Below, in pieces: positions 53,695-64,000 of a DNA stretch of 64,000 bases. Location: the NCBI GenBank assembly GCA_938048185.1, contig CALIVT010000034.1, positions 1-64,000 on the forward strand, written 5' to 3'. Position 1 is the first letter of the stretch; each line of letters starts with the position of its first letter. A model generated the notes under the pieces. The model was not told the DNA's origin and did no database searches. It worked only from the letters and a program-made list of their open reading frames with translations. The position numbers and the translations under genes were made by a program. The DNA is from an uncultured Arenicella sp. (GTDB lineage: Bacteria > Pseudomonadota > Gammaproteobacteria > Arenicellales > Arenicellaceae).

Positions 53695-56600
53695 TTGAAT
53701 ACCAAAGAACAAGTTAGTCTTTTCAAAGACATCGAACGCCGCGCCAAAAATTTAGCCCTAAACGGTATCAAACATCCGTTTGAATGGCATAAAAAAGTGG
53801 CCGGACTAATCAGCCCTAAAGCCGTAGAGTCAACTCGCCAAAAGCTCAAGAAGTTGGCGGTTGATGACTACGTTGCGAAAGTGCTCGACCCTGCCGAGTC
53901 AGCGAGTCGACCCAGCGCCAGAGCCGCCGTTAGCCAGTTGCGCGGCAAAATTTACAGCGAATTTGAGCTAGGCCCGCTCTACTCTGTTGAACTCGCGCTG
54001 GAGTATGAAGGCAAAACCCGACGCTTAGCGTTCATTGCACAAGACCGCAGTGTCACAAACGGTGTTTGGTCACCCGAGCACCACCTCGAAGCATGCCGCT
54101 TGGTTGAAGAATATTCTAGCCGTGCAATCCCAATCGTCACGTTTATGGACACCCCTGGTGCCGATGCGGGTACCGACGCTAACGAAAATAACCAGGCGCA
54201 CTCAATCTCACGTCTAATTGCAGTGATGGCCGCTGCCAAGGTGCCATCAATCGGCATTATCTATGGTTTAGGCTATTCCGGTGGCGCGATTCCATTGGCA
54301 ACGACGAACCTACTGCTGGCGGTGCGTAACGGTGCATTCAATACCATTCAGCCCAAAGGCTTAGCGAATATTGCGCGTCAATACAATTTATCATGGCAAG
54401 AGAGTGCACGTTATGTCGGCGTATCACCGTCCGAGCTTTTCCGCAGCGGCGCAATCGACGGAGTTATAGATTGGGACCCAAGCGACAGTGATACCGCGCT
54501 GACTCAAAACCAAAACCTAGTGGCGGCTGTTTTTACCGGCATTCAAGAAATTGAAGCCGACGCTAAACGAGAAGTTTTAGAAAACCCAAAAGTCGCCGCC
54601 GACTATGTAGATAGCGTTCGCAGCGAAAAATTACACAAACGCGAATTCGAGAATCTACAAAAAGCCGCCAATTTCGAACTATGTAGAGAACTCACTGAAT
54701 ACCCAAACGTCTACGTTCACGCGATGAGCTACTTGCGCTCACTATCTATGCGCAGTCGTATTCACTCTACCACCGTCGAGGCCTACGGTCGTTTAGCCGA
54801 TGAAGAAATACCGAAAGGTGATTTGAATACCCGCACGCAATTGCTGCGAGAGGTCGCTTTTAAGCAATGGCTTTCTGACCCTGAAAAGCTGGTATACAAC
54901 GAACAGTTGGCGAAGTCTTGGGCACTGTTAAAACAACGTCGCGACGAACTTGAGTACGAGCGCAACAAATTAACCACCTTTATCCTGGGCGACCCGCAGA
55001 ATAACTTTAAGACTGCACAGAAAAATTTTTGCTTTGTTCTGTGTTTGTATTTGTATAACCGCTGGAAGTCGGACGCTGCTTTTAACTTCGTCGAGATGAG
55101 TCGCAAAGTCGCGGCCCTGCCCGACCATGAAGAAGGCCAAGACACGCCACTTGATAAGCCCGAATCAGACCTAACCTTACTTGACACTCTTTATGAGCCA
55201 AGTATTCGTGAAACCTTACAAGACCAATTCAGTGATATCTTAGTTTTCGACGCGGTCTACAACAACATCGTAACCAATTTTGGCGAGATTGCCGAAGAGT
55301 CGAAAGCCTTTCAATCAATTTCAGAGAATACGCTGCGACGTATTCTTGATAGCTCCTTAGAGCAAGTGGCGTCAAGTGTAAGCGACACCATGACCGAAGG
55401 CGCAGTTATCGATAGCGACATTAAGAACGAGTTTGCTAAATGGCTATCGCACTTTGTTAAGTATGATCAACGTGGTGAATTTTTAGCCGATGTTGAAGAG
55501 TGGAAACGTGTGAATTTTCCACGCATGTCAGATTCGTTGCTGGTGCTAATCACCTATTTTTTCGAAACACTTGTACCGCGATTTATCGAATCGCAGAAAA
55601 GCGGTAAGGCCTACAATGGCCAAATTAACCCGGGGCGCATCGGCAAACGTAAGGACTTTTGGAATCAGTTAAACATCGCCTATCAAGACTTGATGGTGCA
55701 ACGTGTTTTAACCTCTTTTAAGCGCCAAAAGCTAACAACTGTGGACGCATTCAAATCAGAACTCTTCACGAGCTTTGACGAAACTAATGCGAATCGCATG
55801 ACCGCCAACCCAGTATCATTTCCCGGTTTTAGGCAGTCGATTGAAAAATCACTGAATAATGGAATTACCCCTTGCGGCGTGGTTACCGGATTTGGGGATT
55901 TAAAACTCAATAGCGAAGGCAGCACCGCGAAAGTTGGGGCGCTAATTTCCAACGTTAGCTTTCAAGCTGGCGCGTTTGATATGGCCGGTGCAGAAAAATT
56001 ATGTTCCCTGCTTATTGACTGTGCAGACCACGGTCTGCCGGTGGTCTGTTTTGTCTCCTCAGGGGGTATGCAAACCAAAGAGGGCCCTAGCTCATTGTTC
56101 TCAATGGCGATCGTAAACGACCGCATTACCAACTTTATTTCCGAAACCGGCTTGCCCGTTATTATTTTCGGCTTTGGTGATTGCACCGGCGGCTCGCAAG
56201 CTAGTTTTGTCACCCACCCACTCGTACATACCTATTACTTCAGTGGCACCGATATGCCGTTTGCTGGCCGTGTTGTAGTGCCCTCGTTTTTGCCATCAAT
56301 GGCGACTACGTCGAACTATCTAGCGAATAAACCTGGTTCAATGCAAGGCCTTGTCACGCATCCGTTCGCGAAAGGTCTCGACGAAAAACTGAAAGAAGTT
56401 GACCCGTCAATCGCTCTACCAAACCAAACGATTGGTGATGTTGTGAGTGATGTTATCGCGGGTGTGGTCAGTGTTGACGCCAAGGAATCAGAGCGGAAAG
56501 TTTTCCGAGCTGTAGACCAAATGGGCAAAATCAAAACGGTCTTAATTCACGCTCGTGGTTGCACCGCGGTGAAGTTAATCCGCGTAGCACAACAACAAGG

Positions 56601-58260
56601 CCACAAAGTCTTGTTGGTGCAATCCGACCCGGATATGGATTCGGCGGCCTGCGACATGCTCACTGAACACGACGAAGTGGTGTGTTTGGGCGGCCAAACA
56701 CCCGGAGAAAGCTATCTAAACGGCTTGTCGGTAGTCACCATTGCGCGCAACCGTGGCGCTGACGCGCTGCACCCGGGCATTGGGTTTCTATCTGAAAATG
56801 CTGGGTTCGCGCGACTTTGCCGCGCCAACGGTTTGAATTTCATTGGCCCTAAAGCGAGCAGCATGGACACCATGGGCAACAAATCCAACGCGATCAGCAC
56901 TGCAATGTCTAACGATGTACCAGTAGTGCCTGGCTCGCACGGTATCCTAACCAGTGCCGAAGCAACCGCAAAAGTGGCTGAAGAAATTGGCTACCCGGTG
57001 TTACTAAAAGCCGTTCACGGTGGCGGCGGTAAAGGTATTAAGGTCGTGCGCAGCGCGTCGGAAGTTAAAGACGCCTTTAATAATGTTTACAGCGAGGCGC
57101 GCTCAGCGTTTGGCAACGGCGACTTGTATCTAGAAAAATTCGTCGAATCTATGCGTCATATCGAAGTGCAGATATTGCGTGATACCCACGGCGTAACCAA
57201 AGTGCTAGGTCTACGAGACTGTACCGTGCAGCGTAATAACCAAAAAGTGTTGGAAGAATCGGGTTCTACCATGCTGCCAAAGCACCTCGAAAAGATGGCC
57301 TATGAATGTGCCGAAAACTTAGCGGATGCGGTTGACTACTTTGGCGCTGGTACTGTCGAGTTCATCTACGACCTAAAAGCAGACACCATTTATTTTATGG
57401 AAATGAATACGCGCCTTCAGGTAGAGCACCCAGTCACTGAGTGGACCTCAGGTGTGCGCATTGTCGGCACTCAGTTCGAAATCGCGGAAGGTGCAACAAT
57501 TAAAAACATGAAAATCCGTAATGATGGATTTTCAATCGAGGCGCGAATTACTGCTGAGAAAGCACGTTTAGACAGCAATGGCGCAATTGACTTCTTGCCC
57601 ACGCCAGGTCTCGTCACCGAATGTAAGTTCCCGCAAGGAAAACACATTGAGGTTATTGCGGCAGTGTCCGAAGGCAAAACAATTTCGCCGTTTTACGATA
57701 GCATGATTGCGCAACTAGTAGTCCATGGAAAAAACCGCAAAGACGCCATCAAAAAACTGATTGACGCGTTAGATCAGACCAGCATCAAGGGTGTTTGTAC
57801 TAATATAACCTTACTCAAACGTATTTTAACCGACCCAACCTTTGTCGGCGGAAATTACGATACCGGGTACCTACCGGCTTTCTTAGACACCTTAGACAAA
57901 GATCTATTGGTTGAGGAGATGGAGTATACGGGGGTAGATAAGGCTGATAGTGATCTAAGTAGCTTGCAGATCAGTGGTACTGACGAGATTAAGGTTATCT
58001 CACCGATGACCGGTATCTACTACTCCACGCCATCGCCAAATGAACCCGAGTTTGCAAAAGTAGGCGATAAGATGAACTTAAGTCAAACCTTGTGCCAGGT
58101 CGAGGCGATGAAACTCTTTACGCATATTTCTTTGTCGAGTGTACCCGGGTCTGGCGAAGTATTCACCGCAGAAAACCAATACCAAATAGTTCGCGTAAAC
58201 CAAGCCAATGGCGCGCAAGTAAACGCGGGCGATTTACTGTTTGTGGTTAAGCCGGTTTAG
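53695..58260 (+). CDS. Fused acetyl/acyl-CoA carboxylase with all four activities (CT-alpha, CT-beta, BC, BCCP)
   Basis: 1521 residues from TTG 53695, preceded by AGGG. In order: (1) an AccA-like carboxyltransferase lobe, about 90-300, with FMDTPGADAGTDA (150-162) and GLGYSGGAI (191-199); (2) a helical region of about 370 residues with no motif I recognise; (3) an AccD-like lobe, about 705-930, with CGVVTGFGD, CFVSSGGM (785-792) and GDCTGGSQAS (829-836); (4) biotin carboxylase, about 945-1400, with the ATP-grasp loop HGGGGKGIK (1108-1116) and EMNTRLQVEHPVTE (1236-1249); (5) a biotinyl domain with VEAMKL, biotin Lys1473. The AccD zinc finger (CxxC pairs) is absent. It should carboxylate acetyl-CoA or another short acyl-CoA as a single chain. 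The domain order differs from eukaryotic ACC (BC-BCCP-CT). Substrate specificity cannot be read from sequence. Confidence 0.85.
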   Translation: MNTKEQVSLFKDIERRAKNLALNGIKHPFEWHKKVAGLISPKAVESTRQKLKKLAVDDYVAKVLDPAESASRPSARAAVSQLRGKIYSEFELGPLYSVELALEYEGKTRRLAFIAQDRSVTNGVWSPEHHLEACRLVEEYSSRAIPIVTFMDTPGADAGTDANENNQAHSISRLIAVMAAAKVPSIGIIYGLGYSGGAIPLATTNLLLAVRNGAFNTIQPKGLANIARQYNLSWQESARYVGVSPSELFRSGAIDGVIDWDPSDSDTALTQNQNLVAAVFTGIQEIEADAKREVLENPKVAADYVDSVRSEKLHKREFENLQKAANFELCRELTEYPNVYVHAMSYLRSLSMRSRIHSTTVEAYGRLADEEIPKGDLNTRTQLLREVAFKQWLSDPEKLVYNEQLAKSWALLKQRRDELEYERNKLTTFILGDPQNNFKTAQKNFCFVLCLYLYNRWKSDAAFNFVEMSRKVAALPDHEEGQDTPLDKPESDLTLLDTLYEPSIRETLQDQFSDILVFDAVYNNIVTNFGEIAEESKAFQSISENTLRRILDSSLEQVASSVSDTMTEGAVIDSDIKNEFAKWLSHFVKYDQRGEFLADVEEWKRVNFPRMSDSLLVLITYFFETLVPRFIESQKSGKAYNGQINPGRIGKRKDFWNQLNIAYQDLMVQRVLTSFKRQKLTTVDAFKSELFTSFDETNANRMTANPVSFPGFRQSIEKSLNNGITPCGVVTGFGDLKLNSEGSTAKVGALISNVSFQAGAFDMAGAEKLCSLLIDCADHGLPVVCFVSSGGMQTKEGPSSLFSMAIVNDRITNFISETGLPVIIFGFGDCTGGSQASFVTHPLVHTYYFSGTDMPFAGRVVVPSFLPSMATTSNYLANKPGSMQGLVTHPFAKGLDEKLKEVDPSIALPNQTIGDVVSDVIAGVVSVDAKESERKVFRAVDQMGKIKTVLIHARGCTAVKLIRVAQQQGHKVLLVQSDPDMDSAACDMLTEHDEVVCLGGQTPGESYLNGLSVVTIARNRGADALHPGIGFLSENAGFARLCRANGLNFIGPKASSMDTMGNKSNAISTAMSNDVPVVPGSHGILTSAEATAKVAEEIGYPVLLKAVHGGGGKGIKVVRSASEVKDAFNNVYSEARSAFGNGDLYLEKFVESMRHIEVQILRDTHGVTKVLGLRDCTVQRNNQKVLEESGSTMLPKHLEKMAYECAENLADAVDYFGAGTVEFIYDLKADTIYFMEMNTRLQVEHPVTEWTSGVRIVGTQFEIAEGATIKNMKIRNDGFSIEARITAEKARLDSNGAIDFLPTPGLVTECKFPQGKHIEVIAAVSEGKTISPFYDSMIAQLVVHGKNRKDAIKKLIDALDQTSIKGVCTNITLLKRILTDPTFVGGNYDTGYLPAFLDTLDKDLLVEEMEYTGVDKADSDLSSLQISGTDEIKVISPMTGIYYSTPSPNEPEFAKVGDKMNLSQTLCQVEAMKLFTHISLSSVPGSGEVFTAENQYQIVRVNQANGAQVNAGDLLFVVKPV

Positions 58261-61217: not shown

Positions 61218-62198
61218 TTAGCCTAAAAGATGTTCTATCGCAGAGCGTTCTTGGCGCAACTCATCTTCAGTGACGTCCATGCGTGCACGACTGAATTCGC
61301 TAACTTCCAAGCCTTGGACAATTTCATAATTGCCATCTTTGCAGGTAACAGGGTATGAATACATGATGCCCCGCTCGATGTCATAACTGCCGTCGCTAGG
61401 AATCGCCATGCTCACCCAATCACCTTCAGATGTGCCTAAGGCCCAAGTACGCATGTGGTCAATCGCCGCCGCCGCCGCTGACGCAGCACTCGAGGCACCG
61501 CGCGCTTTAATAATAGCCGCGCCACGTTCTTGCACGGTTGGGATAAAATCTTCTTCTAACCAAGACTGATCAACTAAACCGCTGGCAGCATCGCCATTAA
61601 CGGTTGCGTTGGATATATCTGGGTACTGAGTATTTGAATGGTTGCCCCAAATTGTCATGCGCTTGATTTGGGTCGTGTGAGCACCGGTTTTCTCTGCTAA
61701 TTGACTCAACGCACGATTATGATCAAGGCGTGTCATGGCAGTGAATTGCCCCACAGCCAGATCCGGCGCATTTGCCGATGCGATCAACGCGTTGGTGTTT
61801 GCTGGGTTACCAACAACCAATACCTTGATTTCACGGCTTGCAACTTTGTTCATCGCCTTGCCTTGTACGGAAAAGATTGCGGCATTCGCTTCGAGCAGAT
61901 CTTTACGCTCCATACCCGGACCACGTGGCCGAGCACCTACTAGCAACGCGTAGTCTGTGTCTTTAAACGCCACTTCTGGATCATCAGAGATAATTACTTC
62001 TTGCAACAAGGGAAACGCACAGTCATTTAATTCCATAACCACGCCTTCTAGCGCACCCATGGCTGGTGTTATTTCCAACAACTGTAAGACAACAGGTTGG
62101 TCTGGGCCCAACATCGCGCCGGAGGCAATGCGGAACAATAAAGCGTAGCTGATTTGACCAGCAGCACCAGTGACGGTAACGCGAACTGCTTGTTTCAT
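61218..62198 (-). CDS. mdh: Malate dehydrogenase
   Basis: NAD-dependent oxidation of malate to oxaloacetate, TCA cycle. 326 residues. The nucleotide loop is [32 protein letters not shown] holds substrate-binding Arg residues, and [13 protein letters not shown] and the catalytic His in [12 protein letters not shown] follow. This is the cytosolic/LDH-like group found in Pseudomonas and Burkholderia relatives, not the E. coli type. AGAGGA precedes the ATG. Confidence 0.96.
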
Positions 62199-62532
62199 GG
62201 TAGATCCTCTTAATAAATCGGTAAGTCTTAGGCTTAAGCCGTTTTTGGTTCGCGCAGAGTGTACTAAAAATGGGGTTTTCTGGCTATATATTGGTACTGA
62301 ATTACGCGAATGTCGAGTATTTAGGCAAACTTAGCTAATTTCTTAATTGCCTCATGTGCCCAGAGTACCTATGATTAGTCAAACTGATACAAGACTGACC
62401 CGGTCCCGTTTTGTGGTTGAAGCTAGTTAACCTTAATTGAAATTTAACAAGCTGGTAAGCAGGGCCGACGAATAACATATGAAAACCCTCTAAGATCGAC
62501 TTGTACTACAGAGCTTAGGCTCAGGATTGGGT
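62199..62532. other. Divergent intergenic region between mdh and the LuxR-type gene
   Basis: About 330 bases with no gene. A TCGACA on the minus strand near 62315 with tatata about 20 bases downstream is a weak mdh promoter candidate. Nothing distinctive seen for the plus-strand gene. Confidence 0.35.
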
Positions 62533-64000
62533 ATGGATAACTCTCGCTTTAGTAGTTTAATCTATAGAATCATCGGCAAACCTGAGCGTTGGCATGACGA
62601 CTATCTTGACGTCATGCACCAAGTTTTAGATGAAACAGAGTCGTTTGATGACCCTGCTAATTTTTCCGAGCTTGCTATCGGTGATCAGATATTAAGCCGA
62701 ATTAGCAATACCAATGAAGCGTTGAATGCGTTTGGCACACTGCTGGATAAAAGCCGTTTCAGGATGATTGTCTTAGACGCGTCGTTTACCCCCATCTACC
62801 ATAACCAAAACGCCGAAGAGCTATTTCATTTCGTACAAAGCAAGAGCAAGCCAAATACAGTCGCGCTTCAGGTTTTGGATAAGATACGCAAAGCTGCGCT
62901 GCAAAATGCCAAACACTCAAACAAGAGCGAGAGCAACCTCTCATCAATTGACACCGTTGACCAAAACGGTGACCAGATGTACCTGCGCTCAATCCATAAT
63001 CTGAGTGAAATTGATGGAACTGTTTCCACTTATTATCTGCTGCTTGTCCTCGATAAAAGCGCGAATACCAAACAGTTAAACCCAGAATTAATCGAACGCT
63101 ATGAGCTCACGGATAAAGAGCAAATGGTATTAATCAGCTTGATTCATGGAAAAACCATCAAGCAAATTGCCAGCGACGAATTTATTACCGAAAACACGGT
63201 CAAAACGCATCTTAAAGCACTTTTTAGAAAGACCGAAACCAAGTCTCAAGCAGATATAGTTCGACTAATATTGACTCACGAATCACAGATTCTTGATAAC
63301 TATTTCGGCACTTCAGGCGGCTTGCTAAACACGACTAAGGTTGAACCAACACAAGACAAGTTCATAATCTTAAGCGGCGATCATGAGATTGCATACAGAG
63401 AGTACGGGCCGCGCGATGGTGACCCAATCGTTGTTTGCCATAATGGCTATGGGTGTCGCGTCACCATACCTCGCGGCTACGATGAAATTTGTCGTCGCCA
63501 TAATAAACGCATCATCATTCCAGACCGTCCAGGCTACGGGCTAAGTCCGTATATTGAAGGGCACCCGAACAACTGGAATTCCATGTTCTCTGAGTTTATC
63601 GACAAACTCCGGCTAGACAGTTACGAATTACTCGGCACAGTACTTGGCTCGGTCATCGCATTGAATTTCGCCGTGACCGCCGATCAACGTTTAAAGCGCG
63701 TGATGCTCTGCTCCCCGGTGTTTGTGAACGTGCGTAAAGACAACGACTACTTACTTGGCATCTTCTCTCCGGTGACGCGGTTAATTCGCGCCTCCGAGCG
63801 TTTTGCACGAGAACTCTACGAGCTGTGGCTGCGAAGCATCACGATGAATCTCTCAGTCCACTATCGAACGATGTTGAATAATAGCGTCGGCAGTGCTGAG
63901 CGAGAAGCCTTTGAGAAAAACGACACAGTTGATTTAATGATCGAAGGATTCCAACAAGGAAGCAGTCATGGGCTCGATGGGATCTCGCATGAAATGGTGC
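62533..64000 (+). CDS. LuxR-type HTH regulator fused to an alpha/beta-hydrolase domain (partial, runs off right edge)
   Basis: 489 residues visible, no stop reached. The N-terminal part (1 to about 185) resembles a PAS-like sensory region, with FRMIVLDASFTPIYHNQNAEEL near 85. A LuxR/GerE-type HTH spans about 193-258 (TDKEQMVLISLIHGKTIKQIA, then TENTVKTHLKALFRKTETKS). From about residue 277 an alpha/beta-hydrolase fold begins: EIAYREYGPRDGDPIVVCHN, the oxyanion region HNGYG (303-307), PDRPGYGLS and the nucleophile-elbow position LLGTVLGSV (366-374). At the usual GxSxG serine the residue is Val370. The HTH lies in the middle rather than at the C-terminus as in most LuxR proteins. A ligand-sensing pseudo-hydrolase regulator is my inference. 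Confidence 0.8.
   Translation, partial: MDNSRFSSLIYRIIGKPERWHDDYLDVMHQVLDETESFDDPANFSELAIGDQILSRISNTNEALNAFGTLLDKSRFRMIVLDASFTPIYHNQNAEELFHFVQSKSKPNTVALQVLDKIRKAALQNAKHSNKSESNLSSIDTVDQNGDQMYLRSIHNLSEIDGTVSTYYLLLVLDKSANTKQLNPELIERYELTDKEQMVLISLIHGKTIKQIASDEFITENTVKTHLKALFRKTETKSQADIVRLILTHESQILDNYFGTSGGLLNTTKVEPTQDKFIILSGDHEIAYREYGPRDGDPIVVCHNGYGCRVTIPRGYDEICRRHNKRIIIPDRPGYGLSPYIEGHPNNWNSMFSEFIDKLRLDSYELLGTVLGSVIALNFAVTADQRLKRVMLCSPVFVNVRKDNDYLLGIFSPVTRLIRASERFARELYELWLRSITMNLSVHYRTMLNNSVGSAEREAFEKNDTVDLMIEGFQQGSSHGLDGISHEMV

Follow-up and report, generated by a model that had tools for sequence, protein, structure and literature searches.

A LuxR-type regulator of Arenicella with a C-terminal alpha/beta hydrolase domain that lacks the catalytic serine

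The window analysed here, a stretch of 64,000 nucleotides from an uncultured marine Arenicella sp. (assembly GCA_938048185.1, contig CALIVT010000034.1, positions 1 to 64,000), ends within a gene for a putative regulator that joins a PAS-like domain, a central LuxR/NarL-type helix-turn-helix (HTH) and an alpha/beta hydrolase domain in one chain. At the position of the nucleophilic serine the hydrolase domain carries a valine (Val370), and the column of the catalytic histidine is occupied by glutamate (Glu542). The initial annotation, made for this one protein, understated the trait, which is genus-wide and found within a broader family that is often without the catalytic serine. Judged from sequence comparison, the protein is probably a one-component regulator whose former hydrolase now serves as a non-catalytic ligand pocket.

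Gene, domain architecture and neighbourhood

Followed along the host contig, the open reading frame comprises 556 aa from the ATG at 62533. Codon 556 ends at contig position 64200 and the stop codon (64201-64203) lies outside the window (Table 1). The ATG was chosen over a TTG at 62527 because the orthologues L061 and L063 start with MDNSRFS. With the 3' end, which had been missing from the initial annotation, the hydrolase domain is full length and includes a cap. The HNGYG motif is what we take, from the general alpha/beta hydrolase fold, to be the oxyanion-hole region.

Table 1. Position of the regulator gene, its domains and motifs, and the adjacent features in the window
Feature	Position	Strand	Remark
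Putative PAS-like / LuxR HTH / pseudo-alpha/beta-hydrolase regulator gene	62533..64000	+	ORF open to window edge
N-terminal helical region, residues 1-72	62533..62748	+	16/72 positions invariant (24 copies); low model confidence
PAS-like domain, residues 73-178	62749..63066	+	most variable domain
LuxR/NarL-type HTH, residues 190-250	63100..63282	+	Pfam PF00196
Alpha/beta hydrolase domain with cap, residues 276-556	63358..64000	+	last 67 residues outside window
HNGYG, presumed oxyanion-hole region	63439..63453	+	His303, Gly305, Gly307 invariant in 24/24
Nucleophile elbow GTVLGS, residues 368-373	63634..63651	+	Val370 codon GTA 63640-63642
Malate dehydrogenase (mdh) gene	61218..62198	-	divergent neighbour of regulator
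mdh-regulator intergenic region	62199..62532	+	only block near mdh well conserved

The truncated window protein matched the GerE family (PF00196) with 44.8 bits at a Pfam cut-off of 23.5, which assigns its HTH to the LuxR/NarL type, and Abhydrolase_1 (PF00561) with 27.1 bits at a cut-off of 25.8. The GerE HTH of the orthologue L063 scored 52.7 bits. AHL-type LuxR receptors are defined by an N-terminal autoinducer-binding domain. Among the five Pfam matches of the window protein up to an E value of 1 there was neither an autoinducer-binding nor a receiver family, and the N-terminus of L063 is PAS-like by fold, placing the protein outside the AHL-type receptors. PAS was also absent from the Pfam matches of the truncated protein; sub-threshold PAS matches were detected in five of the ten relatives scanned (L081, L088, L089, L098 and L100).

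An AlphaFold2 model was made for L063 with an alignment of 38 related sequences (mean pLDDT 80.0, hydrolase core mostly above 90, cap partly 65-80). In the structure comparison its hydrolase domain matched 9wlv with a Z score of 30.1 (rmsd 2.8, 279 aligned residues), while the other 49 of the 50 matches listed were esterases and related enzymes with Z scores of 22.8-26.5. Together with the PF00561 match, this model places the whole C-terminal domain including its cap in the alpha/beta hydrolase fold. Single-domain hydrolases such as 9wlv and PhaZ (8ynv) share the fold (Z 22.8-30.1 over 242-279 residues among the 50 matches listed) with 12-21% identity to the L063 hydrolase in the same matches. 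Residues 62-183 of L063 were modelled in isolation (mean pLDDT 87.5), and the 50 Foldseek matches listed for this N-terminal model had mostly PAS/LOV titles (probability 0.97-1.00), including DosP, TraJ and EcDOS, with a best E value of 2.4e-4 and TM scores of only about 0.4-0.5. The predicted fold of the N-terminal domain can be called PAS-like on this basis. The order PAS-like domain, central HTH and C-terminal hydrolase fold, as given in the initial annotation, was borne out by the Pfam matches and the fold search on L063. A structure combining HTH and hydrolase was found neither in the PDB sequence profile search, where the best 60 of 505 matches cover the hydrolase region alone, nor among the VIA-align matches listed, which cover the hydrolase range alone, too.

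Within the genus, a full-length copy from the window gene's own group (clade A) is present in 16 of 18 Arenicella genomes and a copy from a second paralogue group (clade B) in 10 of 18; the assignment was read from the genome match table and the tree, in which clade A has a support of 87 and clade B of only 40. Neither copy was found in three genomes of two other genera of the family.

The neighbourhood was inspected at ten of 13 fetched loci of clade A. All ten have a divergent upstream minus-strand gene of 326 aa with a near-identical mdh N-terminus, and nine have a minus-strand gene of 741-747 aa downstream of the regulator; L063 differs downstream. The neighbours of the window's own copy score as malate dehydrogenase and, below the curated cut-off, as a member of the RelA/SpoT family (scored on its C-terminal part). 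Six clade B loci inspected by eye have no single common neighbour pair. From the conserved synteny we infer that the mdh promoter or the regulator's own promoter would be the nearest candidate target. In an alignment of 11 intergenic sequences inspected by eye, no inverted repeat that could represent a conserved operator held in the window. Several Arenicella intergenic regions share a conserved block close to the start of mdh (TACTAAAAAT, then TGGCTAT; 62258-62292 in the window), which might be the promoter of mdh or a binding site.

Elsewhere in the window, a plus-strand gene (53695-58260) encodes a fused acyl-CoA carboxylase of 1521 aa with carboxyltransferase matches within residues 111-288, biotin carboxylase matches within 946-1393 and a biotinyl domain at 1434-1517. 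Such a transferase-first order seems unusual.

Catalytic residues in the Arenicella copies

The elbow column holds Val or Ile in all 26 Arenicella copies of the two paralogue groups. As this conservation rules out chance, Val370 is neither a private change nor a sequencing error, and the loss of Ser is shared by the homologues in the genus. Among the 24 codon-aligned copies the elbow position is encoded by GTA, GTC, GTT, GTG, ATA, ATT and ATC, i.e. exclusively as Val or Ile. The L063 model has a strand at 364-369 leading to a helix at 372-382, so that residue 370, a Val as in the window protein, sits on the turn of the nucleophile elbow, where it had initially been placed from the sequence motif.

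The catalytic-His column contains Glu in 25 and Asp in one of the same 26 copies. In the window protein His543 adjoins Glu542, and we considered whether the GYSEH motif might provide an intact catalytic His; read without gaps, the alignment has Glu542 in the His column with His543 next to it. His543 is kept in 23 of 24 copies, L007 having Tyr instead (GYSEY). The catalytic acid Asp514 is kept in all 24 aligned copies. From the expected triad the alignment therefore returned the Asp alone, with Ser replaced by Val370 and the His column by Glu542. Judged by these columns, the regulator would retain the acid of a catalytic serine hydrolase and neither its nucleophile nor its histidine. The initial expectation that hydrolysis is unlikely, which had been derived from the missing Ser, holds up and now extends to the canonical His column.

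A different Ser at the elbow was likewise considered, and no invariant one emerged. Residue 369 (Ser in 15, Thr in five, His in two and Ala in two of 24 copies) and residue 373 (Ser in 14, Cys in nine and Ala in one) are often Ser, neither of them invariantly.

The window genome encodes a third, distant fusion (L003 on contig C12) with 22% identity, Met at the elbow (GNMAGS) and a Gln in its His column.

Related fusions and losses of the serine

We collected 110 HTH-hydrolase fusions, mostly from Pseudomonadota, which makes the architecture a recurrent one and not a one-off. The genome contig scan used peptide patterns outside the elbow, and all other searches scored complete sequences with the elbow included. 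Near-full matches to profile A3, built from 61 fusions (first position at most 11, last position at least 315), were found among the rows listed in 13 of 369 class genomes, four of these being Arenicella, and in 37 of 398 genomes of the phylum sample. The best 30 or best 80 loci per search were taken, leaving many single-domain matches outside the set. The fusion set is not a random one, as the searches started from Arenicella sequences, from a mixed profile or, for plasmids, from one Ser-keeping fusion.

The fusions were compared with 57 fetched single-domain relatives after removal of redundant and truncated rows. Left out as truncated fusions were L254, L118, L257, L251, L097, L216 and L022. 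L260 and L261 were counted as fusions (HTH match with E 7.6e-4 and 2.8e-9, respectively). Three more rows were left out: L258, which has a long N-terminus and R at the elbow and in which no HTH was detected; L262, with G at the elbow and a partial match to the HTH; and L245, which lies at a contig edge and has S at the elbow but no His. L045, L056 and L057 were rejected as fusions, as they were gone under a cleaner profile.

The full Ser-His-Asp triad is present in 57 of 57 single-domain relatives and in 22 of 110 fusions. The catalytic Ser is absent from 73 of the fusions, the catalytic Asp being kept in 95. Their elbow residues are Ser (37), Val (21), Ile (10), Gly (10), Gln (7), Ala (6), Asp (6), Met (4) and Cys (2), with a gap in two and one each of Tyr, Asn, Leu, Trp and Thr. 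Without the 26 Arenicella rows, Ser is present in 37 and missing in 47 of 84 fusions, and the triad is kept in 22. Among the 73 Ser-less fusions, 26 have a Ser one column off and 47 do not. For the group with GSDF-like elbows (L047, L050, L164, L166, L169 and L244) the nucleophile column is uncertain. These six, as well as L163 and L217, have an Asp at the elbow or beside it (GSDF-like, GYD). Such elbows are reminiscent of Asp-nucleophile hydrolases, in an alignment that is ambiguous here.

In a quick IQ-TREE analysis of the fusions and single-domain relatives (274 columns, catalytic columns removed), all 110 fusions fell into one clade with an SH-aLRT of 91. There were 14 changes between Ser and non-Ser on the fusion tree; with Ser as the ancestral state and irreversible loss, 19 losses were counted, or 15 once branches below 80 were collapsed. 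In an earlier tree, built from 97 fusions and 56 single-domain rows, fusion changed once and Ser 11 times, with 16 losses. Related regulators thus seem to have lost the catalytic residue several separate times, a pattern suggestive of enzymes that became chemical sensors. Placed next to the Arenicella clade are, among others, Ser-keeping fusions outside the class of the window organism, a placement that is weak (support 57). The median root-to-tip distance is 3.08 for the fused domains vs 1.61 for the single-domain ones, and because of these longer branches long-branch artefacts are possible in the fusion tree. Since the fused domains evolve fast, part of the Ser loss could also reflect relaxed constraint instead of selection for sensing.

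Three fusions encoded on plasmids are annotated as 'alpha/beta fold hydrolase', 'alpha/beta hydrolase' and 'LuxR C-terminal-related transcriptional regulator'. The two hydrolase names imply an enzyme activity that many fusions (88 of 110 are without the full triad) may lack.

In L084, L085, L087 and L091 from Woeseia/Woeseiaceae, a Ser-keeping fusion is immediately preceded, in line, by an ORF of about 340 aa with a LuxR-type HTH (gene-by-gene inspection covered L084 and L091). At L049 a single-domain, triad-keeping hydrolase is located between two same-strand ORFs with LuxR-like HTH matches, possibly an unfused arrangement; the upstream ORF of this locus has no Pfam family at E 0.001.

Proposed function and alternatives

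In the proposed mechanism the LuxR/NarL-type HTH would bind DNA, as its domain family suggests. The hydrolase, without nucleophile and catalytic His and with fold, cap, oxyanion loop and Asp514 retained, would hold in its pocket a small ligand, probably a hydrophobic compound or an ester, lactone or acid. The initial annotation likewise suggested a one-component sensor for an ester, lactone or hydrophobic signal, which stays a putative role here. A bound ligand could displace the cap or rearrange the domain interface, with an effect on dimerisation or on the binding of DNA. A contribution to dimerisation or a second input may come from the N-terminal PAS-like domain.

A hydrolase used as a receptor is known from plants. 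As described in excerpts of PMC3531792, the gibberellin receptor GID1 is an alpha/beta hydrolase turned receptor without enzyme activity, which holds its ligand in the former active-site pocket beneath a lid, has lost the active-site His of the ancestral lipase, contacts the hormone by Ser and Asp, and works through DELLA/F-box partners. The likeness lies in the hydrolase fold as a receptor, the ligand-pocket role in Arenicella being our proposal. GID1 lost the His and keeps the Ser, whereas the Arenicella regulator is changed in both the Ser and the His column and keeps the Asp. Moreover, the regulator has its DNA-binding domain in the same chain, in contrast to the separate DELLA/F-box partners of GID1. 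The strigolactone/karrikin receptors D14/DAD2/KAI2 are likewise built on an alpha/beta hydrolase fold, with a lid of alpha helices, and an active-site Ser mutant of DAD2 does not complement (excerpts of PMC3531792). Unlike the Arenicella regulator, they keep a working triad.

In bacteria, an alpha/beta hydrolase and a PAS domain form the RsbQ-RsbP sensory unit, which is coupled to different outputs, those named in excerpts of PMC3183031 being PPM phosphatase, histidine kinase and diguanylate cyclase; the term 'LuxR' does not occur in the main text of this paper. RsbQ is a separate gene product and requires its triad (PMC3183031, excerpts), whereas the hydrolase of the regulator lies in the same ORF, is fused C-terminally, lacks Ser and His and has a LuxR HTH as output, so that the protein falls outside the RsbQ-RsbP type. 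The GerE HTH is common to the regulator and other LuxR/NarL regulators, but here it is central and flanked by the PAS-like domain and the hydrolase. For RcgA/RcgR, hydrolase and HTH are described in separate proteins (excerpt of PMC9601222). Among the papers listed in a limited literature search, none described LuxR-HTH/hydrolase fusions in its title or abstract opening. In the sources cited, pseudo-hydrolase receptors and hydrolase-PAS modules are already known, and neither precedent is a LuxR fusion.

Conservation among the 24 Arenicella copies differs between the domains. Mean entropy was 0.90 for the N-terminal helices and 0.98 for the HTH, both being more conserved than the hydrolase (1.16-1.27), which in turn is more conserved than the PAS-like domain (1.82); the value for the linker is 1.83. 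The pocket loops H303-x-G-x-G, DRPG, GTED and GYSEH are nearly invariant within the genus. In the cap, E427, Y429, L431, W432 and L433 are invariant in these copies, and the GYSEHIYY motif is near-invariant. These cap residues could form an interface and the PAS-like domain, a common sensor fold, might do the sensing, in which case the hydrolase, its catalytic residues gone, would be a ligand-free structural or dimerisation module, i.e. a dead enzyme used as an interaction surface. We regard this as unlikely, because the supposed sensor would be the most variable domain in the genus while the pocket loops are nearly invariant, and a mere scaffold has no obvious need for these loops. The higher conservation of the hydrolase pocket compared to the PAS-like domain favours an input domain over a passive scaffold.

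The conservation of Asp514, His543 (23/24) and His303 makes some other chemistry possible. The regulator might be a catalytic receptor with a shifted mechanism, in which Ser/Thr369 or Cys/Ser373 acts as nucleophile with His543 and Asp514 and, as in D14/KAI2, the signal includes ligand turnover. Ser or Thr at 369 in 20 of the 24 copies would agree with this, as would the conserved His543 and Asp514 and the ordinary triad kept by 22 of the 110 family members. Such a mechanism is nevertheless quite improbable, since neither 369, with two His and two Ala, nor 373, with one Ala, is invariably Ser, Thr or Cys, since L007 carries Tyr at 543, and since the L063 model puts residue 370 at the elbow turn and not 369, with which the preceding strand ends.

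For three close pairs, dN/dS of the whole protein was 0.043/2.03, 0.064/1.52 and 0.067/2.68, and for the hydrolase part of the pair L013-L015 it was 0.080/1.52, dS being near or beyond saturation and not computable for three further pairs and for the hydrolase part of L025-L031. The low dN/dS in the three close pairs and a codon turnover confined to Val and Ile suggest that a function is maintained. The long fusion branches and the many different elbow residues across the family could alternatively mean that the enzyme domain is degenerating after the fusion and the protein is heading to its loss, which is very unlikely for Arenicella given the low dN/dS, an elbow held to Val or Ile via seven codons, and a full-length hydrolase domain read through without a stop in 26 copies (L031 is cut 5' by the contig).

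The reading of the hydrolase as a ligand pocket can tentatively be extended, with somewhat less confidence than doubt, to a Pseudomonadota-wide LuxR family. A hydrolase would have been captured once as a sensor, its catalytic site dismantled repeatedly and independently, and the elbow residues (V, I, G, Q, A, D, M, C and others) fitted to different ligands. Such a family might represent a bacterial, directly DNA-coupled counterpart of GID1, and its triad-keepers would be surviving stages on the way from enzyme to receptor.

Should the pocket be a sensor, triad-keeping and triad-less regulators would stand side by side in one family, and the steps from enzyme to receptor would be directly testable. 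Ligand screens of the hydrolase domain could then reveal which signals feed into a group of LuxR regulators that is poorly understood.
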